26,683 bases of DNA from a virus. Under the pieces are notes generated by a model. That model had not been told where the DNA came from, did no database searches, and saw only the letters and a list, made by a program, of their open reading frames with translations. A program made the position numbers and the translations under genes. Position 1 is the first letter of the stretch; every line of letters starts with the position of its first letter. This document shows positions 2 through 22,230 of the stretch, piece after piece. The stretch spans positions 1 to 26,683 of IMG/VR virus record IMGVR_UViG_3300034106_002091; one strand, 5' to 3'.

Positions 2-739
2 GCAACAGCCTTCGGCGACCTCTATAATCTTCGCGGAGCAGGACTACCCTTGTCTGACCCAATTGACCCCATCATTCGCCAAATTAACAAGGAGTATGCC
101 GACAAGTCGGTAGCCATCTATCACAACAATCGCTACTACATTGCCATCCCGTTAAACGCATCCATCTACAACAACGCCATATTGGTTTACAACTTGCTCA
201 ACCAAGGTTGGGAAAGCATTGATTTGATTGAACAGGAGGGCTGGGACGTGGCCAACTTCATTACCTCTAGTGCTGGTGGCGTTAATAGACTCTTTGCCAT
301 CAACCGATTTGGCGGCATCAATGAGGTGGAGTCCCGCGTTGATGACGTAGATAACATCTACACGTTCCCCGGCCTCCCATCCAAATTCTTCCACGTTGAA
401 TCGGAAGCGTTAACCCGTGAGTTTACATTCCAAAGCCCAGAACGCAAGAAGTTCAACAGCTTTGAAATTCACACGGAATCCAGCGAAAGCAACAACTCCG
501 ACGCTCTCATTGAGGGTGTGTCTGAGAATTTGGATAGTGAATTTGAGCTTGGCACCGTATCTGGCATCCTTGGTGAAGTCTTAGCGGTAGGTGAAGACGC
601 ATCTCTGCGTGGTAGAATCGGCAACATTCGGGCTTACGGAATGCAACTTAGATATACTCCGACTGCTGGACGACCCAAGTTGCGCTTAGTAAAGCTCACA
701 GCATCACCCACCTTCAGAGCGTTAACACAAGCCTCATAA
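2..739 (+). CDS. Phage tail/DNA-stabilisation-type protein, C-terminal part (gene runs off left edge)
   Basis: The reading frame is open from the first bases of the window, so the 5' end of the gene lies outside; a TTG at 50 is an internal codon, because the residues before it (GDLYNLRGAGLPLSDPI) read as normal protein. About 245 residues are visible. A stretch near residues 45-75 (RYYIAIPLNAS..., then VYNLLNQGWESID) resembles the beta-rich repeat of phage tail-tube or packaged-DNA stabilisation proteins of the P22 gp10 / T7 gp12 kind, where a strand ending in 'vYnl.n.aW.s.d' is common. The C-terminal part has strand-rich sequence ending GRPKLRLVKL. It is followed after one base by the fibre gene, consistent with a tail module. 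The family is a resemblance judged by eye; tail location is fairly safe, exact role is not. Confidence 0.6.
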   Translation, partial: ATAFGDLYNLRGAGLPLSDPIDPIIRQINKEYADKSVAIYHNNRYYIAIPLNASIYNNAILVYNLLNQGWESIDLIEQEGWDVANFITSSAGGVNRLFAINRFGGINEVESRVDDVDNIYTFPGLPSKFFHVESEALTREFTFQSPERKKFNSFEIHTESSESNNSDALIEGVSENLDSEFELGTVSGILGEVLAVGEDASLRGRIGNIRAYGMQLRYTPTAGRPKLRLVKLTASPTFRALTQAS

Positions 740-740
740 C

Positions 741-1541
741 ATGGCAATTCTATCCAAAGGAGCAACGATTGTTGCCGACACGCAAGTTAGTGCAACCAAC
801 CTCAATAACTTGGTTGATGCAGCTACGTTTGTATCGGGTGCGGTTGACAACACGACTACCCAGCTTTCGGGTGGGGCTATCATTGTTAAGGATGCTGGTA
901 TTACCCCAGCCAAACTAAGCACGGGTGGTCCTAGCTGGACAAGCGGCGGAACGGTGTCTGCCACAGCGTTTTCCGGCCCCCTTACTGGAGCTGTAACAGG
1001 TAATGTTACCGGCAACGTTAGTGGTTCATCTGGCAGCACTACGGGTAACGCAGCAACGGCCACCAAGATAGCAAGCATTACCAATTCTGACATTGTTCAA
1101 CTAACGGCAAGCCAGACGTTAACAAACAAGACGTTAACCTCACCAACCATTACAGGAACGGGAGCTATTGCCGGAAACTTTACAGGCCCAATTACGGGTA
1201 ATGTCATTGCCAGCATCGCCAACATTACGCTGCTTGATTTGGTTCCTGAATTTGGCTATGCCACAAGCGGAACCATCACCCTCAATCTTGCGGCTGCAAG
1301 TAACGCCAGAATCGAACTGAGCGGTAATAGCACGTTTGCGCTTTCCAGCATTGATAGCGGCCAAATAAACATTGTGGCCCTAAAGAACAACACAGGTGGA
1401 ACCATTACGACTAGCTGGCCAGCTTGGACCTCTGCTGGTGGTAGTTTCCCCGCTTCCCTAACATCGGGACAAGCAATGGTTGTTTCCCTCTATTCCTACG
1501 GCTCTACCACAGGTAGCGTTTACGCAGTTTCTTCCCTCTAA
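741..1541 (+). CDS. Small tail fibre / fibre-like virion protein
   Basis: A 266-residue protein of low-complexity, Gly/Thr/Ser/Asn-rich sequence with almost no charged residues in its middle. It contains tandem short units (SGPLTGAVTGNVTGNVSG, then ITGNVIASIANIT) and the phrase TLTNKTLTSPTITGTG, which recurs in many phage trimeric fibres and appendage proteins. The N-terminal 60 residues are more ordinary and could be the virion attachment part. The C-terminal 100 residues are strand-rich and end SYGSTTGSVYAVSSL, possibly a trimer tip. The ATG follows the previous stop by one base, and no Shine-Dalgarno site is seen. It probably makes a thin trimeric fibre or tail decoration; receptor binding is inference from position after a tail gene. 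Confidence 0.65.
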   Translation: MAILSKGATIVADTQVSATNLNNLVDAATFVSGAVDNTTTQLSGGAIIVKDAGITPAKLSTGGPSWTSGGTVSATAFSGPLTGAVTGNVTGNVSGSSGSTTGNAATATKIASITNSDIVQLTASQTLTNKTLTSPTITGTGAIAGNFTGPITGNVIASIANITLLDLVPEFGYATSGTITLNLAAASNARIELSGNSTFALSSIDSGQINIVALKNNTGGTITTSWPAWTSAGGSFPASLTSGQAMVVSLYSYGSTTGSVYAVSSL

Positions 1542-1545
1542 TTTT

Positions 1546-3732
1546 ATGCCTTACGACCCACAGACAGGCGAGTATATACCAGACGTTGGAGCACGCCCAG
1601 CTTTAACACTTGGCGGTTCAGGCAACTCATTTGGTTTTGACCCTGCACAAGCTACCCGCGACTATCTTGCGAGCATATCCAACCCAGATACGCTTAAAGC
1701 CCTATTGGGTGCTGAAGCTGCTGCACGTCCCGCCCTTGGTGGCCTTGGACTTAAAGATATTGGTCAATATTCGCAAGGCGTTGATCAGTTTGATGCAAAG
1801 GCGTTTCTTGCTGCTCGGCCTGACATCCTCAATAATTTCAATAACGACAAAGCCGGGTATTCCAATATGTATGGAAGCCTAGAGCAATACGCTAAGGCTG
1901 CTGCTGACGCCGAAGGACTTACGGCTAATTTTACAGTTAAAGAAGGAGGTTCAATTGATTTATTTAATGCCTTAAGCAAGGCTTCAAGTGGAGCGGAAGC
2001 GGCGGCAAATACAGCCGTTAGAACTGCTTCAACCGCTGACGTTAATGCCCTAGCCCCTCAACTTGCGGCTACTTACAATCAGCTTAATCCAGAGGTTCTT
2101 GCTAGTTTAAAACGAGCTGAAGCCCTCGCTACTCCCGGTGCTGACCCCTACGCTGGTATGCGTAGCGCGGTTGAAAACGCCAGACAATTTGGAGACTTGT
2201 CGTTTACCCCAGCTCAAGCGGCTTTGCTTGGAGCAGCCCCACAGGTGGGTCTAGGTGGATATAATGCCGCTCAAACCAATGCCGAGGGATACAACGCAGC
2301 AATGGGTCAATCTAGTGGTTATAAGGCTGAACAAGCTAAATCCCAAGGATACACGTCCGAGGGCTATACCCCACAAGGCTATAATGCAGCCCAAGCTTCC
2401 ACGGGTATGCAGACAGAAGCCGAGCGTTTGGCTCGTGGCAAACTCGGTGAATCGCTTTACAATCAAGCTTTGAATGCTGGCCCTAGCCAAGCTGCTCAAA
2501 CACTGGGTGGCCGTGCGGCACAATTTGCCGCCAGTACGGGTCAGCTTTCTCCTGAAGAACTTCGTAATGTTCAGCAAGGCACCCGTGAAGCCTATGCTGC
2601 GCGTGGCATTGAGATGAGCAATCCAGCCATTGCTGCTGAAGCTGCGGCTCGTTCTGGTGCAATGCGTCAACGTCAGGCTGAAGACTTGGCTCAAGCCGTT
2701 GCTCTCAATCAGGCTTACACCCAAGACCTCACCACCAATCGTAACTTTGGGACAGGTCTTTATGGTCAGGAAATTGGTCTTCAACAGTCCAATCAACAGG
2801 CCGCACTTCAGGCTGCGCTTGCCAATCAGCAAGCCAATCAGAATGTGGCTCTCGCTAATGTTGGAGCTACTAACACAGCCAATCAATTCACCGCTGGTCT
2901 TAAAGCTGATGCCAGTCAGTTTGGAGCAAATGCTGCCAATACAGCCAATCAATTCGCGGCTAATGCTGCTAATCAAGCAGCTTTGCAAAACGCTTTGCTT
3001 GGTTCTAATGCGGGTCAGTTTGGCGCAGATGCAGCCAACCAGATGTTCTTAGCTAACCAAGCGGCTACAAATACGGCCAACCAGTTTAGTGCTAACGCCA
3101 GAAATCAAGCCAACACCGCCAATCAAGCTGCAATCAATGCAGCTAGAATTTTTGGTGCAGACGCCGCAAATCAAACTCAGCTTACTAATGCTGAGCTTAT
3201 GGCAAAATATGCTCTGGCCAATCAGGGAGCCGCCAATCAATTCTCTTTGGCCAATCAGATCGCCAACCTAGATGTTGCTGCTCAAAACCGCACATTCTCT
3301 GCCAATCAGCAACAGGGTAATATCACCAATCTTGGGGTTCTTGGACAGGCTGGGGCCAATCAAGCTCAGTCCAATCGTGACTATGCTACTAATTTAGCAA
3401 CAGGCTATCGCAATGCAGCGTATGACCCAATGAGTGCGCTGCTTGGCCAGACAAGCAATGCTGCTCAAACAGCTGGTCAACAACAGAACTATGTTCTGGA
3501 CTTGGCTAAGACGTTCAACACCCCCACAACCTACAATCCAGACACGGGTATTAACTTGGCATTGGCTAACAACGCTAACATGACCAACAAGAGCATTGCG
3601 GAAACAGCCGCTAAAGCTCAATTGGATGCCGCTAGGATGGGTGCTTCTGCTACAAAAACTGCTGGTGTTGCTTCCGGTGTTGGTTCAATCTTGGGCGGAG
3701 CGGCTGGTGCAGCTGCTATTGTCGCCCTATAA
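1546..3732 (+). CDS. Repetitive A/Q/N-rich probable internal virion (DNA-ejection) protein
   Basis: 728 residues. The ATG at 1546, four bases after the fibre stop, is preferred to an in-frame ATG at 1480 that would lie deep inside the fibre gene. The first 150 residues have mixed composition. Around residues 238-285 there are six or seven units built on G-Y-x-A/S/P with Gln/Ala spacers. A globular stretch (about 285-390) contains many RxR/AAR segments, and residues 420-610 are a long, highly helical Ala/Asn/Gln array with repeated ANQ, NTANQF and GADAANQ. The C-terminus is a Gly/Ala hydrophobic tail (SILGGAAGAAAIVAL) that could enter a membrane. Such long helical, repetitive proteins next to two other large proteins are typical of podovirus ejection proteins that leave the capsid with the DNA. 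No enzyme motif is seen. The function is inferred from composition and position. Confidence 0.55.
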   Translation: MPYDPQTGEYIPDVGARPALTLGGSGNSFGFDPAQATRDYLASISNPDTLKALLGAEAAARPALGGLGLKDIGQYSQGVDQFDAKAFLAARPDILNNFNNDKAGYSNMYGSLEQYAKAAADAEGLTANFTVKEGGSIDLFNALSKASSGAEAAANTAVRTASTADVNALAPQLAATYNQLNPEVLASLKRAEALATPGADPYAGMRSAVENARQFGDLSFTPAQAALLGAAPQVGLGGYNAAQTNAEGYNAAMGQSSGYKAEQAKSQGYTSEGYTPQGYNAAQASTGMQTEAERLARGKLGESLYNQALNAGPSQAAQTLGGRAAQFAASTGQLSPEELRNVQQGTREAYAARGIEMSNPAIAAEAAARSGAMRQRQAEDLAQAVALNQAYTQDLTTNRNFGTGLYGQEIGLQQSNQQAALQAALANQQANQNVALANVGATNTANQFTAGLKADASQFGANAANTANQFAANAANQAALQNALLGSNAGQFGADAANQMFLANQAATNTANQFSANARNQANTANQAAINAARIFGADAANQTQLTNAELMAKYALANQGAANQFSLANQIANLDVAAQNRTFSANQQQGNITNLGVLGQAGANQAQSNRDYATNLATGYRNAAYDPMSALLGQTSNAAQTAGQQQNYVLDLAKTFNTPTTYNPDTGINLALANNANMTNKSIAETAAKAQLDAARMGASATKTAGVASGVGSILGGAAGAAAIVAL
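2257..2400 (+). repeat. Coding repeat: GYxA units in the ejection protein
   Basis: About seven imperfect units in 144 bases, each beginning GGN-TAY (Gly-Tyr) followed by Asn/Lys/Thr, Ala and Gln codons. Unit lengths vary (15-27 bases). The DNA varies mainly at third positions while the protein pattern is kept, so selection probably acts on the protein. Similar Gly-Tyr ladders are seen in other podovirus internal proteins. Confidence 0.7.
2806..3365 (+). repeat. Coding repeat: Ala-Asn-Gln helical array
   Basis: Degenerate repeats of GCCAATCAR (Ala-Asn-Gln) at irregular spacing, with larger units such as 'GCN AAY CAR TTY' (ANQF) followed by GANA or GADA. The array explains a long reverse-strand open frame here, which is an artefact of the codon bias. 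The expected structure is one long amphipathic helix or coiled coil. Confidence 0.7.
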
Positions 3733-4535
3733 TGCAATACCAAAACAAGATAGATTATGCTCATGCCCTCATTGAGCAAACGCTAAAGCGTGCCCAAAAT
3801 CCAGCAATCATGTGTTCCTTCGGTAAGGACAGCATGGTTGTTCTAGATTTGGTTCTAAGACACATCCGCAATATCCCGATTATATTCCACCGAGAGGCAT
3901 TCCAGCCGCATAGGTATCGCTTTGCGAACAGCGTCATAGATGGTTTTAACCTAACCGTTTACGACTATCCGCCACTATCAACCGAAATCCAAGAGCACAA
4001 CGGAGAGGTTGAAATAGTAAATTACTACCCAATTGGAAAGCAAACTTGCATGGTTCCAACTGGTATTCGTTCCCCGCGAGAAGGGGAACAGTTTGTTTGC
4101 GGCTTAAAAGACATCTACCTCAAGCCAACGGGTTCATTCAAATACCCTTGGGACTTTGTTTTTCATGGGCACAAGTCCACGGATAGCGACCCGATCTACG
4201 GGAGTGTTCCCTTGAATTCAGACATTGCCGTAAACCTTGAAAGCGCAAGCGCGGCCTTTCCCATTAGGATGTTTACGGATGACGATTTATGGCGATACAC
4301 CGAAGAGAACAATGTCCCTATCCACCACACCAGATATGTGAAGGAGAATGGTAAGTGGAAGGAGCGCGAGGATAAGAGCATGAATCCAGACTATTTCTCG
4401 GCTTGCACGGCCTGTATGAGCAAGTCTTCACCCAATTCTGTTCCGTGCCCAAAGATGGGTGGGGCTCTGGTTAGCAATGTTTCAGAGCAACTTCGTTGGG
4501 CTGCTAGAATGGACCCAGTTTACATGAGGCAGTAA
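3732..4535 (+). CDS. PAPS-reductase/ATP-pyrophosphatase family protein (CysH/CysD/DndC-like)
   Basis: 267 residues. The ATG shares its first base with the stop of the previous gene (TAATG). Residues 29-34 are SFGKDS, the PP-loop of N-type ATP pyrophosphatases (usually SGGKDS), preceded by a hydrophobic strand (AIMC) and followed by a helix. These enzymes activate a substrate with ATP (adenylation, releasing pyrophosphate) or bind PAPS. Cysteines at 106, 123, 225, 228 and 239 include a C-x2-C-x10-C group near the C-terminus that could bind zinc or an iron-sulphur cluster. The C-terminal ECGLH motif of true PAPS reductases is absent, so reduction of PAPS is not assured; a sulphur-transfer or DNA/tRNA-modification role (as for DndC or CysD) is equally possible. 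CysH-like genes are common phage auxiliary genes. The family call is firm, the substrate unknown. Its place among virion genes is odd. Confidence 0.8.
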   Translation: MQYQNKIDYAHALIEQTLKRAQNPAIMCSFGKDSMVVLDLVLRHIRNIPIIFHREAFQPHRYRFANSVIDGFNLTVYDYPPLSTEIQEHNGEVEIVNYYPIGKQTCMVPTGIRSPREGEQFVCGLKDIYLKPTGSFKYPWDFVFHGHKSTDSDPIYGSVPLNSDIAVNLESASAAFPIRMFTDDDLWRYTEENNVPIHHTRYVKENGKWKEREDKSMNPDYFSACTACMSKSSPNSVPCPKMGGALVSNVSEQLRWAARMDPVYMRQ

Positions 4536-15066: not shown

Positions 15067-15240
15067 TTATGTTTCGTGGAATATCCACGTTGTATTTTTA
15101 TCTACCCGAAGAACGGAGAAGGGACGATTGATTGATTCTTGTCGAACTATTTCTTCTTTTTTTTCTTCAACTTTCGCAACTGGCTTCTCGGTAGCCTTTT
15201 CTATGCTAATTTCGTTGCCGAAAAGATCGTATTGCTTCAT
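15067..15240 (-). CDS. Microprotein with N-terminal sliding-clamp-binding motif (57 residues)
   Basis: Starts MKQYDLFGNEI. Residues 3-7, QYDLF, fit the bacterial beta-clamp-binding pentapeptide QxDLF (consensus QL[S/D]LF). The middle is highly charged (EKATEKPVAKVEEKKEEIVRQE) and probably disordered or helical; the end is strand-like (RPFSVLRVDKNTTWIFHET). The ATG overlaps the helicase stop (ATGA), with AGGA seven bases before it, so it is made along with the helicase. A plausible role is to tie phage DNA synthesis to the host clamp or to block the clamp. The phrase DLFGNEI also occurs at the N-terminus of some methyltransferases, but no such domain is present here. Confidence 0.65.
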   Translation of the reverse strand: MKQYDLFGNEISIEKATEKPVAKVEEKKEEIVRQESINRPFSVLRVDKNTTWIFHET

Positions 15241-16496
15241 GCCTGTTCCTCGTAAAACCAAGTGTGGGGAGCGAAGTATTTGATGCGGGAATAGGCCAAT
15301 GGTCCATCCCTGAGCTTCAATTGCAGTAGCTCATAGTCGTAGGTAGATTGCCCTAGTTCTTGGACGTTTCCAGTGTGGCTCTTGCTAGGCCGGTGGAGTG
15401 CAATGACTCTGTGCGCGTCCTCCTCGATAGACCCAGCATCACGGAAGTCAGACCTAGTTGGCGCACGATCTTCTCTTTCGTTGCTACGGTTGAGTTGTGC
15501 CGCAACCATAAGCACACATCCAAGGGTTTTGCGTAGCGGTATCATCGCCTTGCTTAGTTGCCCCATGCGTTCGTAGGCGGAGCCATCGGTGCCCCTGATG
15601 AGGCCGAGGTAGTCGATGATTACAAGCTGTGGCTTCCAAGAAGCCGCGAGTAGGCGGCAACGGCTCTCAATTTGCCCCACCGTCATATCCTTGTCGAACA
15701 CTCTCAGGTGTTGCTCGCCCAATCGCTTTAGAGCCTTAAAATACTCCTGTTGCCGGTCGGTCATTTCCTGATTGATTTGGCGCAGGTTAATCTTGGCCCG
15801 TTGTCCCGCGATTTGCTTCACCACCGCATTCGCTGAGGTTTCAAGGGTGAAGTAGGCCACTCGAAGCCCCCGGTTGAGGTTGTGCGAAGCAATTTGGGAC
15901 ATAAACGAGGACTTACCAATGGACGTTCTCGCCCCGACAACCACATATTCGTGCGCTTCCATCGGGCTGGAGAGCTTGTCGAAGCTAGGTAGGCCGGTAG
16001 TTACGAGGTCGCGGTTGTCCCGAGTGCCCGCAATTTCCTGTTCAGCCCACAATTTAACCTCCGTAATGAGCTGGGTAAGGCTCGGAGCCTCCGATTCTGT
16101 GGGTTTTAAGTGAGTTTGAAGCCCTTCCACGAGTGTTGACACCTCCTCAGCCTTCCCGCCCCGTAAAACGCAAGCAATCGTGTCCTGAAGGGCAGGCTTG
16201 AGCGTAGCCAACTGGCCCTCCCATATCAGGCTCTTCAATGCCTTCTTTCCGGTGACTGAGCTTTGGCAGGCTTTTTCCGCCGCAAATAGCTCATCGGCTG
16301 GACACTTATCGCCCAAAGCTAAGTAAACTGAGTTGCAGTCGGTGAGCTGGGCCTTAGAGCGCAGCCCCACAAGGGTCTGCCAGAGGAGGCGGTGGTTCTG
16401 TCCAAAGGCGGCGTTTGAAAGCCCCTGAGCTATGCCGTCGTCTATGAGTTCGGGGCAAGCTAGGCAAGCCCCGATGAAGATGGATTCTTTGTTCAT
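15237..16496 (-). CDS. Replicative DNA helicase, DnaB family
   Basis: 419 residues, a little shorter than cellular DnaB (about 470). Residues 1-125 form the helical N-terminal domain that begins like DnaB (ESIFIGACLACPELI). The RecA-like motor starts near 160. Walker A is GARTSIGKSS (188-197; canonical GARPSMGKT), followed by the catalytic-glutamate strand AYFTLE, Walker B VIIDYLGLI with D295, a Gln-containing sensor segment LMVAAQLNR, and the arginine region (APTRSDFRDAGSIEEDA, then HR). It should unwind DNA 5'-3' as a hexamer at the fork. It is joined by ATGA overlaps to a helix-turn-helix protein before it and the clamp-motif protein after it, a compact replication unit. The leader is A-rich (AAGAAAAAGAA). 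No primase or polymerase is seen in the window. Confidence 0.93.
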   Translation of the reverse strand: MNKESIFIGACLACPELIDDGIAQGLSNAAFGQNHRLLWQTLVGLRSKAQLTDCNSVYLALGDKCPADELFAAEKACQSSVTGKKALKSLIWEGQLATLKPALQDTIACVLRGGKAEEVSTLVEGLQTHLKPTESEAPSLTQLITEVKLWAEQEIAGTRDNRDLVTTGLPSFDKLSSPMEAHEYVVVGARTSIGKSSFMSQIASHNLNRGLRVAYFTLETSANAVVKQIAGQRAKINLRQINQEMTDRQQEYFKALKRLGEQHLRVFDKDMTVGQIESRCRLLAASWKPQLVIIDYLGLIRGTDGSAYERMGQLSKAMIPLRKTLGCVLMVAAQLNRSNEREDRAPTRSDFRDAGSIEEDAHRVIALHRPSKSHTGNVQELGQSTYDYELLQLKLRDGPLAYSRIKYFAPHTWFYEEQA

Positions 16497-16783
16497 TTCT
16501 TTTTCTTGTAACTAACATTTTCTAACGTGGGACAGTAGTTGTCTTTGTTTGCTTTCACCAAGCGATCAACCGAGGGAAAGCTAAGGTTGTGTATCTTACA
16601 TAAATCCTTGCGGCTTAACCCCCCTCGCCAGTCAAGCACAACGGCTAGGGCTTTCGGAGCATCAATTCTAGGCCGTGCCGCAAATTCCCGGCTCTTACCC
16701 TGTGGGATGGGGTTCTCTGAAAATCGTTTATAATATTTAGCCATCAAAAATCTGACGCTATCCATCGTTTCTGATATGTTCAT
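16493..16783 (-). CDS. Helix-turn-helix protein next to the helicase (96 residues)
   Basis: Starts MNISETMDSVRFLMAKYYKRF at the ATG overlapping the upstream stop. The N-terminal half is basic and helical; residues 50-85 (KALAVVLDWRGGLSRKDLCKIHNLSFPSVDRLVKANKD) have a clear helix-turn-helix pattern, with LSRKDLCKIHNL as the first helices and FPSVDRLVKA as the recognition helix. The tail is lysine-rich (SYKKKK). Its stop overlaps the helicase ATG. It could be an origin-binding or helicase-loading protein, or a regulator; location favours replication, but that is inference. Confidence 0.65.
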   Translation of the reverse strand: MNISETMDSVRFLMAKYYKRFSENPIPQGKSREFAARPRIDAPKALAVVLDWRGGLSRKDLCKIHNLSFPSVDRLVKANKDNYCPTLENVSYKKKK

Positions 16784-17019
16784 AGAGGTTTGACTCCGTT
16801 CTTTCGGCAATGCACCTGAATTGCGGCCCTACTTACGCCCAATTCCTTCCCGATTTGCTTAATGGGCATCCCGCTTTTTCGCATTTCGAGAATAGCGTCT
16901 ATCGTTTTGGCTGAGAGCTTGTTCGTTTTCCGGTCTTCTTCAATTGGTCCCCCACCTTCGCGCATTAAGCGCGGCGCATGGCGAAAGATTAGGTCTAGGC
17001 AGATAGACGCTGTGCTCAT
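16780..17019 (-). CDS. Helix-turn-helix DNA-binding protein (79 residues)
   Basis: Residues 39-75 (LSAKTIDAILEMRKSGMPIKQIGKELGVSRAAIQVHCRKNG) match the resolvase/Hin-type or sigma-region-4-like helix-turn-helix. The N-terminal 35 residues (MSTASICLDLIFRHAPRLMREGG) are helical and may dimerise. The ATG at 17019 overlaps the previous stop and has GGAGG nine bases before it. No recombinase catalytic domain is present, so it is a free DNA-binding domain, probably a regulator of early or late transcription. Confidence 0.75.
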   Translation of the reverse strand: MSTASICLDLIFRHAPRLMREGGGPIEEDRKTNKLSAKTIDAILEMRKSGMPIKQIGKELGVSRAAIQVHCRKNGVKPL

Positions 17020-17345
17020 GCTTCCTCCTCCCATTTCCCAATCGTGCGAAGAAAAGCGCGAGCACGTTGGGCGGCGGTGGCGTTTGCAACGTGACCCACT
17101 TCATTACTTGTTAAATCCCACCAATACTTTTCACGATTTTCTAAGACAATACCGCTAAGCTCTGCTGCAAATTGATTTACCTGTTCCGGCTCTAAGTGAG
17201 CCATAGCTTCGTGCATGGCGTTGAGGTCTTGGAGGTAGTCGGGAGGCGATTGTGGAAACACTTGACCGCGCATATCCATTTGAAATGGATTTGGCTTCCA
17301 CCCACACGCTTCCGCGATGGCTATTCTTTGTTTTTCAAGTTTCAT
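17016..17345 (-). CDS. Conserved small phage protein (109 residues)
   Basis: Begins MKLEKQRIAIAEACGWK and contains PPDYLQDLNAMHEAMAHL, a phrase found in a widespread group of small phage and prophage proteins ('iAeaCGW ... DYLnDLNAMHE'). The group has no established function that I know of. Residues 75-109 are helical and include WWDLTSNEVGHVANATAAQRARAFLRTIGKW. The ATG is coupled to the upstream stop and carries GGAG eight bases before it, within an A-rich stretch. Confidence 0.75.
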   Translation of the reverse strand: MKLEKQRIAIAEACGWKPNPFQMDMRGQVFPQSPPDYLQDLNAMHEAMAHLEPEQVNQFAAELSGIVLENREKYWWDLTSNEVGHVANATAAQRARAFLRTIGKWEEEA

Positions 17346-17626
17346 TTGTTTTCTCCAAAGTCTGCTGGGCCGCAAATAACCGCTCTCTTGAAATCTTCTG
17401 CCCTAAAAAGAATCGCTCCGTCCCAAGCAAGGATAAGAGCAGAATGCTTCTTAATTTCGCCGTGAATTTCGGTTACAATCGAAATGTATTCCTTTTGCTT
17501 TTCCGTGAATTCAGCCATAGAATTTACCGATGTCGTCTTGTAAATTTCTGTTCCGTCTTTGAAATAAATCGTGAGCTTTATTTCTGAGCTTTTGGGCTCT
17601 GTTTCTTTCTTTGAGAATAGGTTCAT
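17342..17626 (-). CDS. Hypothetical protein (94 residues)
   Basis: MNLFSKKETEPKSSEIKLTIYFKDGTEIYKTT... A charged, disordered N-terminus, then strands IKLTIYFKDG and a helix MAEFTEKQKEYISIVTEIHGEIKK, then strands ALILAWDGAILFRAEDFKRAVI. The mixed strand-helix-strand pattern suggests a small alpha/beta domain. It overlaps both neighbours by ATGA. No motif is recognised. Confidence 0.65.
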   Translation of the reverse strand: MNLFSKKETEPKSSEIKLTIYFKDGTEIYKTTSVNSMAEFTEKQKEYISIVTEIHGEIKKHSALILAWDGAILFRAEDFKRAVICGPADFGENK

Positions 17627-17856
17627 TTTGTTTTGTGTTGGTAGAGGTAGTGTCTTGCTAGGTGAAGCGGTGCTCCATGGTCTCGGCAGAGCTCTCGTAA
17701 GGTTTTCTGTGCTTTGAATAGGTCCGCAACTTTCATTGCGGCCCAGCCTCTTTTCGTAGGCAATCTTATTCTGGTCTTAATGACTGTTTCTTTAGGCATT
17801 AAGATGGTTTCTTCAGGGTTAATGCTTGTTTCTTTAGATGTTATGTCTTGTTCCAT
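17623..17856 (-). CDS. Small basic protein, first gene of the replication operon (77 residues)
   Basis: The first 30 residues hold a loose internal repeat (SKETSINPEETIL / MPKETVIKTRI). The remainder is basic and helical, KAQKTLRELCRDHGAPLHLARHYLYQHKTK, compatible with a degenerate helix-turn-helix. The leader AAAATAACAAACACCT precedes the ATG. It is the first coding region after the long structured leader 17857-18190, so its expression probably depends on that leader. Function unknown. Confidence 0.55.
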   Translation of the reverse strand: MEQDITSKETSINPEETILMPKETVIKTRIRLPTKRGWAAMKVADLFKAQKTLRELCRDHGAPLHLARHYLYQHKTK

Positions 17857-18190
17857 AGGTGTTTGTTATTTTCTGACAAGGTTTTGACGCCGCTACGCAA
17901 TTCGCGGCTAGTTAAGCTGCCAAATATCCGACAGAGAAGATTCCATAGGCCGTTAGGCCAATGTCTGAGAGTCCCGTTTGCACCACCCCAAAAGAATCAG
18001 GGCTTCGGTATGCGCTTAGCTGCCAAATGATCCTCCAGAGGGAGTTCCATACCGCCCTCCCTCGAATCTTCAAAGTTGGGGAACGGATTTTCGCGCTGTC
18101 CTAGCAAAGCTGAGTGTGTCGCCGTTTAAGGCGTCCGGTGGTAGTTGCCTTATACGCCCCCGGAACGGTGCGTTCTGCTTTCTGGGCAAC
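17857..18190 (-). other. 334-base untranslated leader of the replication operon
   Basis: I find no convincing gene on either strand. On the minus strand it lies between the terminator at 18191 and the first replication gene. It contains two copies of a hairpin domain (described separately), a TAAGGC/GCCTTA stem (near 18126-18151), a GGCC-TAAC-GGCC mini-hairpin (near 17948-17960), and GCCGC/GCGGC just before the gene (near 17890-17910). I see no good -35/-10 pair. It is therefore best read as the 5' untranslated part of a transcript that has passed the terminator. Confidence 0.45.
17912..18057 (-). repeat. Two diverged copies of a hairpin domain in the leader
   Basis: Copy 1 (17912-17947) and copy 2 (18016-18051), about 104 bases apart, share AGCTGCCAAAT, then ATCC, CAGAG, and TTCCATA at the other end (plus-strand reading), with differences in the middle. 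On the minus strand copy 2 is enclosed by CGGTATG/CATACCG (18057-18051 with 18015-18009) and contains CTCC/GGAG. Copy 1 can be enclosed by CGGC(c)TA/TAGCCG with one bulge. The ends and the 'TTTGGCAGCT' segment are constant while the centre changes, as expected of a repeated RNA domain. Each copy also contains a very short ATG-started frame (17 and 12 codons), so leader peptides are an alternative. Confidence 0.5.
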
Positions 18191-18225
18191 AAAAAAGCCC
18201 CAAGGTGGAACTAGCACCAAGGGGC
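18191..18225 (-). terminator. Intrinsic (rho-independent) terminator, leftward
   Basis: On the minus strand: GCCCC-TT-GGTG, 7-nt loop CTAGTTC, CACC-TT-GGGGC, then TTTTTT. The stem is 5 + 4 bp with a TT/TT internal loop, followed directly by six T. It stops leftward transcripts before the replication operon, so either antitermination or leakage is required for those genes. The loop is the exact complement of a hairpin loop 65 bases upstream. Confidence 0.8.
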
Positions 18226-18296
18226 ATTCTCAGGGAATCCGGCCTTAACGACCGAAAGACAAAAGTTTTCCTTTAGCTCTAGTTCAGCTACCTAAC
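18191..18296 (-). ncRNA. Candidate small RNA with complementary (kissing) loops
   Basis: The predicted transcript runs from just after the -10 box at 18303 to the terminator T-run, about 100 nt with no gene. Three hairpins can form on the minus strand. H1 is TAGCT-GAACTAG-AGCTA (18290-18274). H2 is TTCGGTC-GTTAA-GGCCGGA (18256-18238, including two G-U pairs). H3 is the terminator with loop CTAGTTC. The 7-nt loops of H1 and H3 are perfectly complementary, so they could form a kissing complex within one molecule or between two, similar in size to the ColE1 RNAI/RNAII loop contact. The contact would bear directly on terminator folding. The sequence facts are certain; that the RNA is made is inferred from promoter and terminator. 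Confidence 0.55.
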
Positions 18297-18302
18297 GAGG
18301 GG

Positions 18303-18311
18303 ATTATACCA
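18303..18311 (-). promoter_or_regulatory. Extended -10 promoter, leftward
   Basis: On the minus strand TGGTATAAT: a perfect TATAAT (18308-18303) with the TGn extension that removes the need for a good -35. A perfect TTGACA also lies upstream (18326-18321), but only 12 bases away, too near for normal sigma-70 spacing. The box overlaps the last codons and stop of the 82-residue gene. A start near 18296 would give a transcript that meets the terminator at 18191. Confidence 0.55.
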
Positions 18312-18552
18312 TAGGTTCGTTGTCAATTGGTTTGTTTTCGTCGCGTTCAAACTTTTCGGCCTCTTGAATGAGCCGTTCCAATTCCGTTTCAATCCATTGG
18401 TTGATCGCGTCCCTGTCGGTTATCGTAACCCCCGGTATTACCCCGTAGGGCAGGCAATAGCGTAAAACAGCCTGCAATTGGCCGACGTGGTAGGGGTAGT
18501 TTATGCGGCGGGTGCCGATAAATGCCGTGATGTGTTCTGGTTCTGTTTTCAT
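18304..18552 (-). CDS. Hypothetical protein (82 residues)
   Basis: MKTEPEHITAFIGTRRINYPYHVGQLQAVLRYCLPYGVIPG..., with an acidic helical C-terminus (INQWIETELERLIQEAEKFERDENKP). The middle looks like a compact alpha/beta domain. The ATG has an A-rich leader (AATAAAACAC) and lies five bases after the stop of the 34-residue gene. Its final codons contain the -10 box of the downstream promoter, so the C-terminal sequence NEPMV is under double constraint. Function unknown. Confidence 0.6.
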   Translation of the reverse strand: MKTEPEHITAFIGTRRINYPYHVGQLQAVLRYCLPYGVIPGVTITDRDAINQWIETELERLIQEAEKFERDENKPIDNEPMV

Positions 18553-18557
18553 GTGTT

Positions 18558-18662
18558 TTATTTTGTTGTTCGCTGATAGAGTTCAATTAACGCCCGCGCT
18601 AGGTGGTGAAATCCAGCCTTTTGTGCGCGTTCGGCGGCTAGTAGGTAGTCAAGGGGTGTCAT
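18558..18662 (-). CDS. Microprotein (34 residues), coupled to the membrane peptide
   Basis: MTPLDYLLAAERAQKAGFHH..., one amphipathic helix pair ending LIELYQRTTK. The start is supported by an ATGA overlap with the preceding 39-residue gene and by helical, non-random composition. It has no membrane segment. It could be a real small regulator of the lysis group, or a translated but non-functional link in the overlap chain; I favour the first mildly. Confidence 0.45.
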   Translation of the reverse strand: MTPLDYLLAAERAQKAGFHHLARALIELYQRTTK

Positions 18663-18778
18663 AAGTCCCAACTGTCGTCATCGTCTTTGCGCCAAATTTG
18701 CCAAAGGACAATTAGGCCGAGCAATTGGAGGATAATTAGAACGGCCAAACCTAGGCCGATTAGATTAGGGAGTGTCAT
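18659..18778 (-). CDS. Single-span membrane microprotein (39 residues), possible holin/lysis factor
   Basis: MTLPNLIGLGLAVLIILQLL... with one uninterrupted hydrophobic segment at residues 5-29, then WRKDDDDSWDL, a basic pair followed by four Asp. The predicted orientation has the charged tail in the cytoplasm. It overlaps the preceding gene by 14 bases and the next by ATGA. Being three genes away from an exported transglycosylase, it is a good candidate holin, antiholin or spanin-like component. No sequence family is recognised, so the role is inferred from topology and position. Confidence 0.6.
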   Translation of the reverse strand: MTLPNLIGLGLAVLIILQLLGLIVLWQIWRKDDDDSWDL

Positions 18779-18974
18779 TTTGTTTTGGTTGTTTAACGGG
18801 AAGTTTGAATATGAAAGCCCCTTCGCCCCTCATGGCATGATCGAACAGCGCATCAAGGCTTTCCCCAATAGGGATTCCATAGGCTTTACGCCACGCTTGC
18901 AGGCTTGCCAGTGTGCGAGGCTGCACAAGGCCCACAAGCCTCACCTTGGGCAGTCTATAGGGTCTAGGCGTCAT
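18765..18974 (-). CDS. Small basic protein with ribbon-helix-helix-like pattern (69 residues)
   Basis: The ATG at 18974 overlaps the stop of the 28-residue gene (ATGA), which favours it over an ATG 18 codons upstream. Residues 10-50 (KVRLVGLVQPRTLASLQAWRKAYGIPIGESLDALFDHA) show a strand, then 'RTLASLQAWRKAYG' and 'PIGESLDALFDHA' as two helices, the order seen in ribbon-helix-helix repressors. The basic N-terminus (TPRPYRLPK) fits DNA contact. It would be unusual in a lysis cassette and could be a local regulator. Confidence in the gene is good, in the fold moderate. Confidence 0.55.
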   Translation of the reverse strand: MTPRPYRLPKVRLVGLVQPRTLASLQAWRKAYGIPIGESLDALFDHAMRGEGAFIFKLPVKQPKQNDTP

Positions 18975-19057
18975 CTTAAGAGCCTCACGGCGAGGCAGAG
19001 GACTAATGCGCCTATGCTTAAGAGACAAAGCGCGGCGTTAAGAAGTAGGCGTGTCAT
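18971..19057 (-). CDS. Membrane microprotein (28 residues)
   Basis: MTRLLLNAALCLLSIGALVL..., with residues 4-24 forming one hydrophobic span flanked by Arg at both ends (TR, then VRLLR). It is started by an ATG overlapping the transglycosylase stop and ends by overlapping the next ATG. Its size is at the lower limit of known genes, but the coding couplings on both sides and the membrane character support it. It could act as a pinholin-like peptide that depolarises the membrane or helps release the exported enzyme; this is inference. Confidence 0.5.
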   Translation of the reverse strand: MTRLLLNAALCLLSIGALVLCLAVRLLR

Positions 19058-19440
19058 AAGTGTTTTTTGATTTTGGCCCAATAGGCGTTCAGATTGGCTA
19101 GTTTCTTCCCCGTTGCTTTCATGGCGTTGGGCCCGCCGTTCCAAATTCGGGCTTTTACCTCGTCGCTTTTTCCCTTGCCATAGTGTTCCGTGTAAAGCCG
19201 AAAGATTTGCCGTGATTTTTCGGCATCGAATCGGTCGTTTAAGGTGAATTTAGTCCCTGCGAATCGGTTAACGTCTCGCACGGTGATGGCCCAAATCTGA
19301 GCTATTCCCGCCGCACGTCCGCCGTCGCCTACGGCAAGCGGGTTTCCGTTGCTTTCTACACGGCAAACGGCTTCCCATAGCCCCGCCTTTACGGGCAGGG
19401 CAGAGCAGGCAAGACAGAGCATAAGCAAGGTGCGTTTCAT
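19054..19440 (-). CDS. Exported lysozyme-like lytic transglycosylase (endolysin)
   Basis: 128 residues from the ATG at 19440, which overlaps the preceding stop. The N-terminus MKRTLLMLCLACSALPVKA is a Sec signal peptide with cleavage likely after A19. The mature part starts GLWEAVCRVESNGNP; E29 in the RVESNGNP segment sits where the catalytic Glu of SLT/goose-type lysozymes is found, followed by GDGGRAAGIAQIW (the 'GxxQI' motif) and RIWNGGPNA (the 'YNxG' motif variant). It should cleave the glycan strands of peptidoglycan between MurNAc and GlcNAc in the periplasm. The signal peptide means export does not need a classical large-hole holin; two single-span membrane microproteins are encoded just downstream. 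A role at entry is less likely because it is not among virion genes. Confidence 0.8.
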   Translation of the reverse strand: MKRTLLMLCLACSALPVKAGLWEAVCRVESNGNPLAVGDGGRAAGIAQIWAITVRDVNRFAGTKFTLNDRFDAEKSRQIFRLYTEHYGKGKSDEVKARIWNGGPNAMKATGKKLANLNAYWAKIKKHL

Positions 19441-19649
19441 GCGTTGCCCTCCGCTTCTTTGATTTTTTGAACAGCATAATTTATCCACTCAATTTCGCGT
19501 TCATCTAAGCCGTCAAGAAATACGGATGCTCCGCCGGATTTTGTGCGTGCGCCTAAAGTGTGGCCCCGCAAGCTAAAGCGCGACCATTGTATCGCAAAGG
19601 ATTGCGCTGTTTCACGTTTTGGAAATGAAATTTCGGCTTTAGCATTCAT
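19437..19649 (-). CDS. Hypothetical protein (70 residues)
   Basis: The ATG at 19649 is chosen because it overlaps the previous stop (ATGA); an upstream ATG lies inside the neighbouring gene. MNAKAEISFPKRETAQSFAIQWSRFSLRGHTL..., with strands SRFSLRGHTLG and GGASVFLDGL and a C-terminal helix EREIEWINYAVQKIKEAEG. This resembles a small alpha/beta protein often seen in phage accessory gene rows. Function unknown. Confidence 0.6.
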   Translation of the reverse strand: MNAKAEISFPKRETAQSFAIQWSRFSLRGHTLGARTKSGGASVFLDGLDEREIEWINYAVQKIKEAEGNA

Positions 19650-19912
19650 TTCACGCCCTCCGCTTTGCTGATAACCGAACCAATTCGGGCGCGAATCCAC
19701 TCAGGGGATTCCCCGGCGTTGGCATAAACCAATTGCAACGCCGCAAGCAACTCGGGTGCGGCTGCAACCAATCGCATATTCGCAACGTTGGTGTCTTTGA
19801 AATTGGTTACGAATCTGCAAGAGGCAACAGTTTCGCCTAATGGCCCGTAAACAAGTTCCCCCGGCGCGTAATGCCACGGCCCCGGCGTGTGTGTGTGTGT
19901 GTGTGTGTTCAT
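19646..19912 (-). CDS. Conserved small phage protein with His-Thr N-terminus (88 residues)
   Basis: Begins MNTHTHTHTPGPWHYA and contains ANMRLVAAAPELLAALQLVYA, a combination (TPGPW ... 'ANArLIAAAPELLeAL') found in a very widespread family of phage and prophage proteins of unknown function. The His-Thr residues are encoded by a pure GT/AC dinucleotide repeat beginning directly after the second codon, so a one-unit change would shift the frame. It is the first gene of the overlapping chain that leads to the transglycosylase. Confidence 0.75.
   Translation of the reverse strand: MNTHTHTHTPGPWHYAPGELVYGPLGETVASCRFVTNFKDTNVANMRLVAAAPELLAALQLVYANAGESPEWIRARIGSVISKAEGVK
19887..19908 (-). repeat. 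Dinucleotide microsatellite (GT/AC, 11 units) at gene start
   Basis: A 22-base uninterrupted GT tract (AC on the coding strand) that encodes the Thr-His repeat. Eleven units is long enough to slip during replication; gain or loss of one or two units changes the reading frame, whereas three units add or remove two residues. Confidence 0.9.
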
Positions 19913-19977: not shown

Positions 19978-20850
19978 TCAATCGGCGTGCGTTTCCATCT
20001 TTCCAAGGATGAAATCGGCGGCCCTTTGTCCCTGAGCGGCGGCGTGAATTACTAGCTTGGCGTCCTCTTTCAATTGTTTCAACCACCCCTGAATATAGGA
20101 GGCGGAAGCGGGCAGGGTGTTGTCAATCCCTGAAACGGCGCAAAGAAAAGCCGCGCCCATTTCCGCAACCAACTCTTCCTTGGCGTAGGTTTCCCCGCCA
20201 AACGCCGCAACCTCTGCAACGCCTTTTCGATTAAGGCGGCTTTCGTGCCCGGTTGCGTGCGTCAACTCATGGAATAGGGTGGAATAGTAGTTCCCCGACG
20301 TGTCAAATGTTTCGGCTTTTGGCATTTGAACGCTATCCGTTGAAGGGCGGTAATAAGCCCTATCCCCGCCGTGCGCCAATTTGGGAGCCCTTGGCATATT
20401 AGAAACAATCTTTTCCGCCTCTGCTACGGGGTTGAATTCCGTTCCCTCAATCTTTTCCGCCGCCCATTCTATGCCGTCGCATTGTTCAACGTTAAAAACC
20501 GTGTAATACTTCAAGAAAGGGATTTTCTTCGGCTTGCCGGTAGCGTCCTTTTCTGTTTTGCTATCAACCCAATTCCAAAAAACAACCGGCGTCCCCTTTT
20601 CCCCTTTCCGCACGCTTCCCTTTAGTTCGGCGGCTTGTTTGTAAGTAAGCCAAAACGGGCACGAATAAGGGGAAAAGGATAGCAGAAACCAATTTATGCC
20701 CCGGTAGGATTTGCGGCTTCCAAAGTTTGCAGGGTTTCCGCCGTTTTGCGCTTTCCACGGCTTGCGCCATGGAACGGTCCCCGCTTCCAACTGTAAAACG
20801 ATGCGTTCCGTGATAATGCTATAAACGTCTTTCTTTTCTTCCGTTTTCAT
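19978..20850 (-). CDS. ardC: ArdC-type anti-restriction protein
   Basis: 290 residues from the ATG at 20850 (MKTEEKKDVYSIITERIVLQLEAGTVPWRKPW); a longer frame upstream has no conserved sequence. Residues 5-130 are the N-terminal ssDNA-binding domain of ArdC (PWRKPW, NFGSRKSYRGIN, WLTYKQAAELKGSVRKGEKGTPVVF, then KYYTVFNVEQCDG). Residues 185-285 are a zincin metalloprotease-like domain with H194-E195-L-T-H198 in FHELTHATGHE and a downstream EELVAEMGAAFL that supplies the third ligand. Known ArdC proteins protect incoming single-stranded plasmid DNA from restriction, and related domains occur widely in phages. It lies first in the leftward early region, expected for a gene needed at entry. An A-rich leader (AAAAACACACA) precedes the ATG. 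Confidence 0.9.
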   Translation of the reverse strand: MKTEEKKDVYSIITERIVLQLEAGTVPWRKPWKAQNGGNPANFGSRKSYRGINWFLLSFSPYSCPFWLTYKQAAELKGSVRKGEKGTPVVFWNWVDSKTEKDATGKPKKIPFLKYYTVFNVEQCDGIEWAAEKIEGTEFNPVAEAEKIVSNMPRAPKLAHGGDRAYYRPSTDSVQMPKAETFDTSGNYYSTLFHELTHATGHESRLNRKGVAEVAAFGGETYAKEELVAEMGAAFLCAVSGIDNTLPASASYIQGWLKQLKEDAKLVIHAAAQGQRAADFILGKMETHAD

Positions 20851-21735: not shown

Positions 21736-22230
21736 ATGAGCCTAGAGAACATCAGCCCCGTTCTATTGTCCTCCCTAGTGGACAGTGATAGTCGCACCCT
21801 AGAGGCGCGGGAGCCGACGAAGGCTATGCTGTGCTTGGAGCAACTAGCGGAGGGGAATACGTGGGAAGAAATTGCTGAGGCTACGGGCTTCTCGTTCAAT
21901 CAGATTAGTAAGGTGAAGGCGCGGCATGAGGTTGCCATTGAGGTGAGACGGAAGCAGTTGGCGGCTGATGGGTTTGAAATGGCAGAGGGACTGAGGTTGT
22001 TGGCTAAACAGAAGCTAGAGATGCTGGCGAACAACCCAGATGCTTTGGCTAAGGTGAACATTCGGGACTTGGTTCTTTCCTATGGGATAGCCGTAGATAA
22101 GGGTATGCAGGCCCTAGGGGAGAACAAGGTGGTGGTGGAACACAAGGCTGGTAAGCCTAGCTTGGAGGATGCTATGAAGGCTATAGCGGATGCTAGGGCC
22201 GCGCTTCAGAAGGAGGCTATTAGCATATGA
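21736..22230 (+). CDS. terS: Terminase small subunit (probable)
   Basis: 164 residues. Residues 28-65 form a helix-turn-helix (AMLCLEQLAEGNTWEEIAEATGFSFNQISKVKARHE), as expected of the DNA-recognition domain. Residues 66-130 are long helices (VAIEVRRKQLAADGFEMAEGLRLLAKQKLEML, then ALAKVNIRDLVLSYGIAVDKGMQALGE) suitable for oligomerisation, and the C-terminus (LEDAMKAIADARAALQKE) could contact the large subunit. Small terminases are variable in sequence, so size, domain order and overlap with the large terminase (ATGA) carry the call. It should bind the packaging site and regulate the motor. The control region upstream is a natural place for that site. Confidence 0.8.
   Translation: MSLENISPVLLSSLVDSDSRTLEAREPTKAMLCLEQLAEGNTWEEIAEATGFSFNQISKVKARHEVAIEVRRKQLAADGFEMAEGLRLLAKQKLEMLANNPDALAKVNIRDLVLSYGIAVDKGMQALGENKVVVEHKAGKPSLEDAMKAIADARAALQKEAISI

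Follow-up and report, generated by a model that had tools for sequence, protein, structure and literature searches.

A candidate signal-peptide endolysin in an exchangeable gene slot, accompanied by conserved membrane microproteins, in the leftward operon of a tailed phage

The window analyzed here comprises one entire linear IMG/VR virus record (26,683 bases). Its structural genes point rightward: they start at 21,736, leave the window at the right end and resume at the left end as far as 9,546. The non-structural genes point the other way, from about 20,850 down to 9,548. Comparison with near-complete relatives indicates that the window lacks about 12 kb of late genes, which would lie between its two ends. 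The stretch described below is best explained as the first half of the leftward non-structural operon of a 38–39 kb tailed phage, and the gene order suggests early transcription for this side and late transcription for the structural genes. The leftward set is headed by an ArdC-type antirestriction gene, and a chain of seven small genes starts 65 nt downstream of it. The chain, its surroundings and a second chain that served as a control are as follows.

19978..20850, minus strand: antirestriction gene of the ArdC type, at the head of the leftward set (PF18818, 1e-40; PF08401, 3.2e-35; phrog_7245, 2.5e-82)
19646..19912, minus strand: 88-aa 'HTPGPW' protein, first gene of the chain (phrog_1273, unknown function, 4.5e-12)
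19437..19649, minus strand: 70-aa protein, ATGA overlap with the preceding gene (no PHROG at E≤1)
19054..19440, minus strand: LT-A, a lytic transglycosylase of the SLT family (128 aa) that starts with an export leader and is a candidate endolysin (PF01464, phrog_669)
18971..19057, minus strand: 28-aa single-span microprotein, m28 (conservation, pN/pS, predicted span 4–27)
18765..18974, minus strand: 69-aa ribbon-helix-helix-like (RHH-like) protein, constant partner of m28 (alignment, pN/pS)
18659..18778, minus strand: m39, a single-span microprotein of 39 aa whose tail is acidic (conserved family, span 3–30)
18558..18662, minus strand: 34-aa protein, a module that some relatives carry as part of other ORFs
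18304..18552, minus strand: 82-aa protein, 5 nt past the chain (gap +5)
18189..18304, minus strand: RNA element with kissing loops and a terminator-like hairpin, not part of the claimed cassette (covariation)
15067..17856, minus strand: second ATGA chain with a DnaB-like helicase, control (7 genes, 6/6 ATGA)

All seven minus-strand reading frames (88, 70, 128, 28, 69, 39 and 34 codons) are present where the sequence-only reading had placed them, and the junctions between them are, in order, −4, −4, −4, −4, −14 and −4 nt. Thus, all six overlap, five as ATGA and one by 14 bases, and the smallest genes would indeed escape ordinary length cut-offs. The same reading took the overlaps to suggest fixed stoichiometry, and here the evidence points the other way. 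ATGA is found at 14 of the 28 leftward junctions in the chosen CDS set of this phage, and the helicase chain (77, 94, 109, 79, 96, 419 and 57 aa, DnaB included) has it at 6/6 junctions. The gap ahead of the 39-aa gene also varies, being −14 in the window versus −4, +8 or +11 in relatives. Since ATGA overlaps are frequent on this strand, coupling alone is uninformative about lysis, and we rejected the overlaps as the mark of a special fixed-stoichiometry module. The 82-aa eighth gene lies only 5 nt behind the chain, which is therefore part of a longer operon. The 34-aa segment is fused in frame with the next gene in contig L005 and stands fused behind another segment in G004. Because neighbours vary and segments fuse, the chain is a mosaic of exchangeable small genes, and m28 with the RHH-like gene is the sole constant pair among the gene pairs examined. 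Searches of Pfam, PHROG and PADLOC with the 28-, 34-, 36-, 39-, 69-, 70- and 82-aa proteins (the 36-aa peptide being one of relatives, described below) returned nothing usable.

The 3′ end of the 82-aa gene contains a conserved TTGACA-12-TATAAT pattern, with TTGAC in 21 of 21 rows, and the kissing-loop RNA follows directly 3′ of this gene. The element has two hairpins, and their 7-nt loops are fully complementary in 16/16 distinct versions. All cells of the seven kissing pairs are paired, three of the pairs have changed on both sides, and the kissing-loop covariation score is 0.279 versus 0.151 in shuffles. Three divergent versions outside the alignment keep 8 to 10 nt complementary across the loops despite differing sequences; for chance level, at least one 7-mer match arose in 183 of 2,000 shuffles of one of these versions. 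A covariance model in which the kissing pairs were not encoded recovers the element in 12 distinct contigs of this phage group and in none of C75C1, G006, G014, L082, L096, L097, L099 and L102. The wider region has an unremarkable folding energy (z −0.80), and an Rfam search of the whole window gave nothing at gathering thresholds, with one sub-threshold, chance-level match for the element. Judged by covariation, the case for an independent, new RNA element is well supported.

The 128-aa protein matches PF01464 with 22.2 bits against a cut-off of 21.3 (E 1.1e-4) and the endolysin family phrog_669 (1.5e-6). The catalytic E29 as well as S30, G32 and N33 of the motif E-S-x-G-N are invariant in 22 of 22 aligned sequences, and so are the N-G-G-P surroundings. 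In an AlphaFold model (pLDDT 82.9), the predicted fold is that of the lysozyme superfamily: VIA-align gives Z values of 10.1 for the i-type lysozyme destabilase (8bbw), 8.6 for MltE and 7.1 for Slt70. Foldseek of the model against the PDB found none at E≤0.001, and phmmer against PDB sequences gave 0 matches. The PF01464 match, the invariant Glu and the fold similarity are shared with the SLT or family 1 lytic transglycosylases (MltE, Slt70). In contrast to these enzymes, the protein has only 128 aa including the leader and no lipobox was seen, and its best single fold match is destabilase, not a family 1 enzyme. The leader, MKR...LLMLCLACSALPVKA ahead of G, has a short hydrophobic core that stays below the span threshold, and its A-x-A-like site is kept in relatives. 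By its residues (MKRTLLMLCLACSALPVKA followed by G), the leader resembles a short, cleavable signal peptide more than it does a SAR anchor. The sequence-only reading had called an exported transglycosylase here; its family and catalytic residue are upheld, the model agrees with them, and the leader makes export probable.

In relatives, the position of this gene is an exchangeable slot that holds an exported SLT enzyme, an SLT enzyme without a leader or an exported enzyme with the motif 'PPESF'. Loci were first recruited by the transglycosylase itself, and a separate set was recruited by terminase. Since enzyme-first recruitment is biased, the regular presence of an enzyme is argued only from the second set, which is the best 80 of at least 599 stretches, counted over the 28 of these 80 with at least 4.5 kb upstream. 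A slot enzyme is present in 26 of these 28 contigs (seven exported SLT, 11 leaderless SLT and eight 'PPESF'), a 36-aa peptide occupies the slot in the other two, and none of the 28 has both or neither. The exported 'PPESF' enzyme shares both ends with the transglycosylase of the window in L024 and L026; a 36-aa-type block and a PPESF-type block stand head to head in L134/L026, which was treated as a probable chimera. When the 53 proteins of the near-complete relative G001 were searched against Pfam, 29 families matched and SLT was the sole muralytic one among the 25 listed, the other four having E values between 0.0034 and 0.01.

The late operon of relatives, outside the window, encodes a conserved pair of small hydrophobic proteins. 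The pair measures 132–138 aa and 51–55 aa in G001, G004, G007, G012, G013 and G015, and counterparts assigned by eye are a 55-aa member in G006 and proteins of 129 and 57 aa in C75C1. In G001, the larger protein passes the span threshold and the 51-aa protein does not. Neither has a Pfam family, the larger matches only a PHROG of unknown function, and tblastn with both gave no match in phage records. The pair may resemble 3-TM gene-transfer-agent holins. Because no Pfam, informative PHROG or tblastn match was found, the word 'holin' rests here on position, hydrophobicity and this possible likeness to 3-TM holins. The pair is a better holin candidate than m28 or m39. Every holin confirmed by experiment comes from the late transcript (PMC9239132).

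No slot enzyme was seen in contigs with the 36-aa peptide (MKSLF...FLFASNRTR...). One of them, G015 (38,064 bases), is gap-free: when it is placed on the map of G001, its two ends meet and share 8 bases. It has no transglycosylase-alignment match at E≤1, no match to either enzyme model and no muralytic Pfam family at E≤0.003 among 45 of its proteins. The 36-aa gene is the sole compared gene of G015 that is present in 4/4 other such contigs and in 0/8 enzyme-bearing contigs. The peptide is amphipathic with no predicted span, and its pN/pS is 0.323 over five sequences (this and all later pN/pS values are averages over non-independent, related pairs and not a formal test). Its motif occurs in 10 viral-contig stretches, nine in this phage group and one on a 104-kb contig. 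As G015 has no slot enzyme, the enzyme is not indispensable unless the 36-aa peptide replaces it.

These contigs bear on the possibility that the transglycosylase is an accessory early-side enzyme, comparable to the antirestriction genes nearby, and that the true endolysin is an unrecognised one shared by the group, for example inside a large virion protein. The lack of the slot enzyme in the gap-free G015 and in four other 36-aa contigs would agree with this, as would the location of the slot opposite the late genes and amid exchangeable accessory genes. However, 26 of the 28 contigs that were recruited independently have a muralytic enzyme, swapped among three types and not lost, which is the pattern of a needed function, and no other muralytic Pfam family appears among the matches listed for G001, nor for G015; we regard an accessory role as unlikely. 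For the sub-group itself, we tentatively consider that the wall enzyme would have been lost, that the conserved 36-aa peptide in the same ATGA-coupled slot would lyse the cell in an amurin-like manner and that the late holin-like pair would have been kept, a scenario that we regard as unlikely. Such lysis would block wall synthesis or unleash host hydrolases, not degrade the wall. Set against the amurins, the single-gene lysis proteins of ssRNA and ssDNA phages (PMC10229422), the peptide is similar in occupying a muralytic slot with no other hydrolase seen. Unlike them, it comes from a tailed phage whose dsDNA genome also encodes a late holin-like pair; it is amphipathic, has no predicted span and no sequence link to amurins, and it is absent from the window.

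A search of viral contigs for m28 gave 25 stretches. When the contexts from all searches were pooled, merging those with identical gene, downstream protein and 40 nt upstream, 25 distinct contexts remained, and in every one m28 had exactly 28 codons and an ATGA junction with the RHH-like gene. Read in its own frame, m28 has a pN/pS of 0.149 over 21 distinct sequences; the two alternative frames give 1.1 and 4.7. Frame +2 stays open along the whole m28 DNA, but we rejected m28 as a by-product of an overlapping frame on the values for the alternative frames. The RHH-like gene has a similarly low pN/pS of 0.144 over its first 60 codons. Its earlier description as a ribbon-helix-helix-like protein between the microproteins is plausible by sequence pattern; the family itself found no confirmation, as Pfam has no RHH match for the 69-aa protein and the model (helices 19–32 and 38–49, no strand, pLDDT 57.5) is too poor for a structure search. 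The constant adjacency and coupling of the two genes (25/25) could point to a toxin–antitoxin-like pair in which a small membrane toxin is controlled by an RHH repressor, and type I membrane toxins such as TisB are about the size of m28. Yet the peptide comes first and the RHH-like protein second in the gene order, the latter is kept without m28 in L019, L030 and L031, and PADLOC has no match for either protein, so that we hold such a pair to be improbable.

The description of m28 and m39 as real single-span membrane microproteins is confirmed, in that each has one predicted span and is under purifying selection. Frame-breaking changes were sought in relatives, and none was found that tells against either gene. 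The further claim that they are pinholin-like parts of a new lysis cassette fares differently. Pinholins of the phage 21 S68 type have two transmembrane domains, the first of the SAR type, and are partnered by a SAR endolysin, as in phage 21 and phiKMV. The similarity lies in small hydrophobic peptides, conserved and under purifying selection, near an exported muralytic enzyme. In addition, depolarisation of the membrane is all that an exported endolysin requires, a task that might be within reach of a small peptide, and m28 was seen in 0/5 fully covered contigs whose transglycosylase has no export leader, in a comparison over 22 contigs that mix transglycosylase- and terminase-recruited sources. 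However, m28 follows the RHH-like gene and not the enzyme. Its upstream neighbour in the 25 contexts is an exported SLT enzyme in four, an exported 'PPESF' enzyme in two, the 36-aa peptide in six and another gene in 13; thus, an exported enzyme directly precedes it in only six, and the other 19 have unrelated genes or the 36-aa peptide. It is missing from L019 and L020, which have an exported enzyme and keep the RHH-like gene; in L019 it is cleanly gone, with the preceding gene ATGA-joined straight to the RHH-like gene. It is likewise missing beside the exported 'PPESF' enzyme in a more distant clade (L096, L097, L099, L102 and G006). Both microproteins have one span and not two, the leader of the enzyme looks to be of the cleavable type, m39 also occurs with leaderless enzymes, the operon lies on the strand opposite to the structural late genes, and a conserved late membrane pair exists. 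We therefore think it quite unlikely that m28, m39 or both are pinholins or holins for the adjoining transglycosylase and that the chain is a lysis cassette; either might still modulate lysis.

The m39 family comprises 25 distinct peptides among the loci collected, with pN/pS of 0.272 for seven sequences of 39 aa and 0.228 for 13 of 36 aa. It stands alongside every slot type, the leaderless SLT enzyme included, and matches no Pfam family at E≤1, DUF2730 (PF10805) included. As described in PMC9239132, the Mu releasin gp25 is predicted to be N-out and C-in with four residues outside and an acidic cytoplasmic part, and it acts on endolysins with a basic N-terminus. m39 is similar in its short outer N-terminus, one span and acidic tail, and differs in having 39 aa versus 99, no DUF2730 match, no apparent SAR endolysin beside it and an occurrence with leaderless enzymes as well. 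It might accordingly be asked whether m39 is a lysis regulator, either a mini Mu releasin or an antiholin, with the basic enzyme leader or the late holin as its target. An N-out topology with the acidic C-terminal tail inside would suit this, and Firehammervirus offers a gene overlapping the endolysin that limits lysis (PMC7692668). Nevertheless, no Pfam match supports the relationship, the enzyme leader looks cleavable and not like a SAR anchor, and m39 persists beside leaderless enzymes as well as beside the 36-aa peptide, although DUF2730 also occurs with cytoplasmic endolysins. A regulatory role of this kind appears to us to have little probability.

The explanation that we favour, and consider probable, is an exported signal-peptide endolysin in an exchangeable slot, with a late holin pair and accessory microproteins. 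The slot transglycosylase would be the sole lysis gene of the phage in this stretch, exported by Sec, with its leader cut off at A-x-A. The late pair (132 aa and 51–55 aa) would collapse the membrane potential, upon which the enzyme would act in the periplasm. m28 and the RHH-like protein would act as a regulatory pair, inseparable and coupled in translation, and m39 would be a separate small inner-membrane protein with an acidic tail. All three may serve accessory early-side functions (host takeover, exclusion or regulation) and would not be holins. Gene order, conservation, the exchange of the slot, the catalytic residue, the fold family and the existence of the late pair are observed; export, cleavage, timing, which proteins are the holin and what the microproteins do are inferred.

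The nearest published case is the Campylobacter phage Fletchervirus F352, whose signal-peptide endolysin has a transglycosylase domain and needs a holin, with no lysis cassette (PMC7692668). Both systems place a transglycosylase domain behind a signal peptide, with a holin candidate elsewhere and no cassette. They differ in that the slot of the window is swapped among three enzyme types, one of them leaderless, or a 36-aa peptide; moreover, our system is known from genes alone, and no spanin or antiholin was identified in it. A terminase search of genome contigs for the host gave no relative, and the corresponding transglycosylase-alignment search gave only seven weak loci in unrelated MAGs. 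Searches of the open-licence PMC literature listed no paper that deals with this phage group or with the 36-aa replacement.

In summary, this lineage treats the gene of its muralytic enzyme as a plug-in, swapped between flanking ATGA junctions, and the forms exchanged include both predicted exported and non-exported ones. Meanwhile, tiny membrane genes that annotation usually misses stay under selection as the enzyme switches. Should the 36-aa peptide prove to be the lysis effector of its sub-group, a tailed phage would have provided an antibacterial peptide of very small size.

Two conserved features meet where the 82-aa gene, which lies 5 nt past the seven-gene chain, ends:

Window about 18328-18303, minus strand: TTGACA-12-TATAAT-like sequence in the 3′-terminal part of the 82-aa gene.
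Window 18304-18189, minus strand: RNA-like element immediately behind it, with two hairpins and covarying loops.

The 7 nt loop of the first hairpin reads GAACUAG and that of the terminator-like hairpin CUAGUUC, and the kissing interaction between them shows covariation in all of the 16 distinct versions aligned, as well as in three divergent versions held out of the alignment. A search of the window against Rfam gave the element no family at the gathering threshold. In the sequence ahead of it, TTGAC is kept in 21/21 alignment rows; the spacing differs from that of a sigma-70 promoter.

The occupant of the transglycosylase slot is exchangeable, and in the gap-free relative genome G015, where no muralytic gene is detectable, it is a short peptide:

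L172:19233-19343, plus strand: 36-aa peptide in the slot of G015.

In the related contigs L024 and L026, the gene for the 'PPESF' enzyme has the same first codons and the same last ~28 codons as the gene for the SLT enzyme, but another core, which indicates recombination inside the gene. The contig L134 (14838 b) carries the block of 28-aa microprotein, ribbon-helix-helix-like gene and 39-aa-family microprotein twice, as divergent copies lying head to head:

L134, minus strand: 36-aa block.
L134, plus strand: PPESF block.

This arrangement is either an assembly chimera or an inverted duplication.

Two further genes belong to the virion region:

Window 3732-4535, plus strand: PAPS-reductase-like gene between virion genes.
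L173:15381-19007, minus strand: large virion protein of G015 with a sub-threshold Hint-like match.

The homologue of the former in the near-complete relative G001 matches PF01507 (4.5e-9), and the Hint-like match of the latter is to PF13403 (1.2e-4; 22.9 bits against a threshold of 28.4 bits).

Lastly, the non-structural operon of the more distant relative G006 holds a further small ORF:

G006 674-778, plus strand: 34-aa hydrophobic microprotein ORF.

Its presence suggests that hydrophobic microproteins of this kind are common in the phage group.
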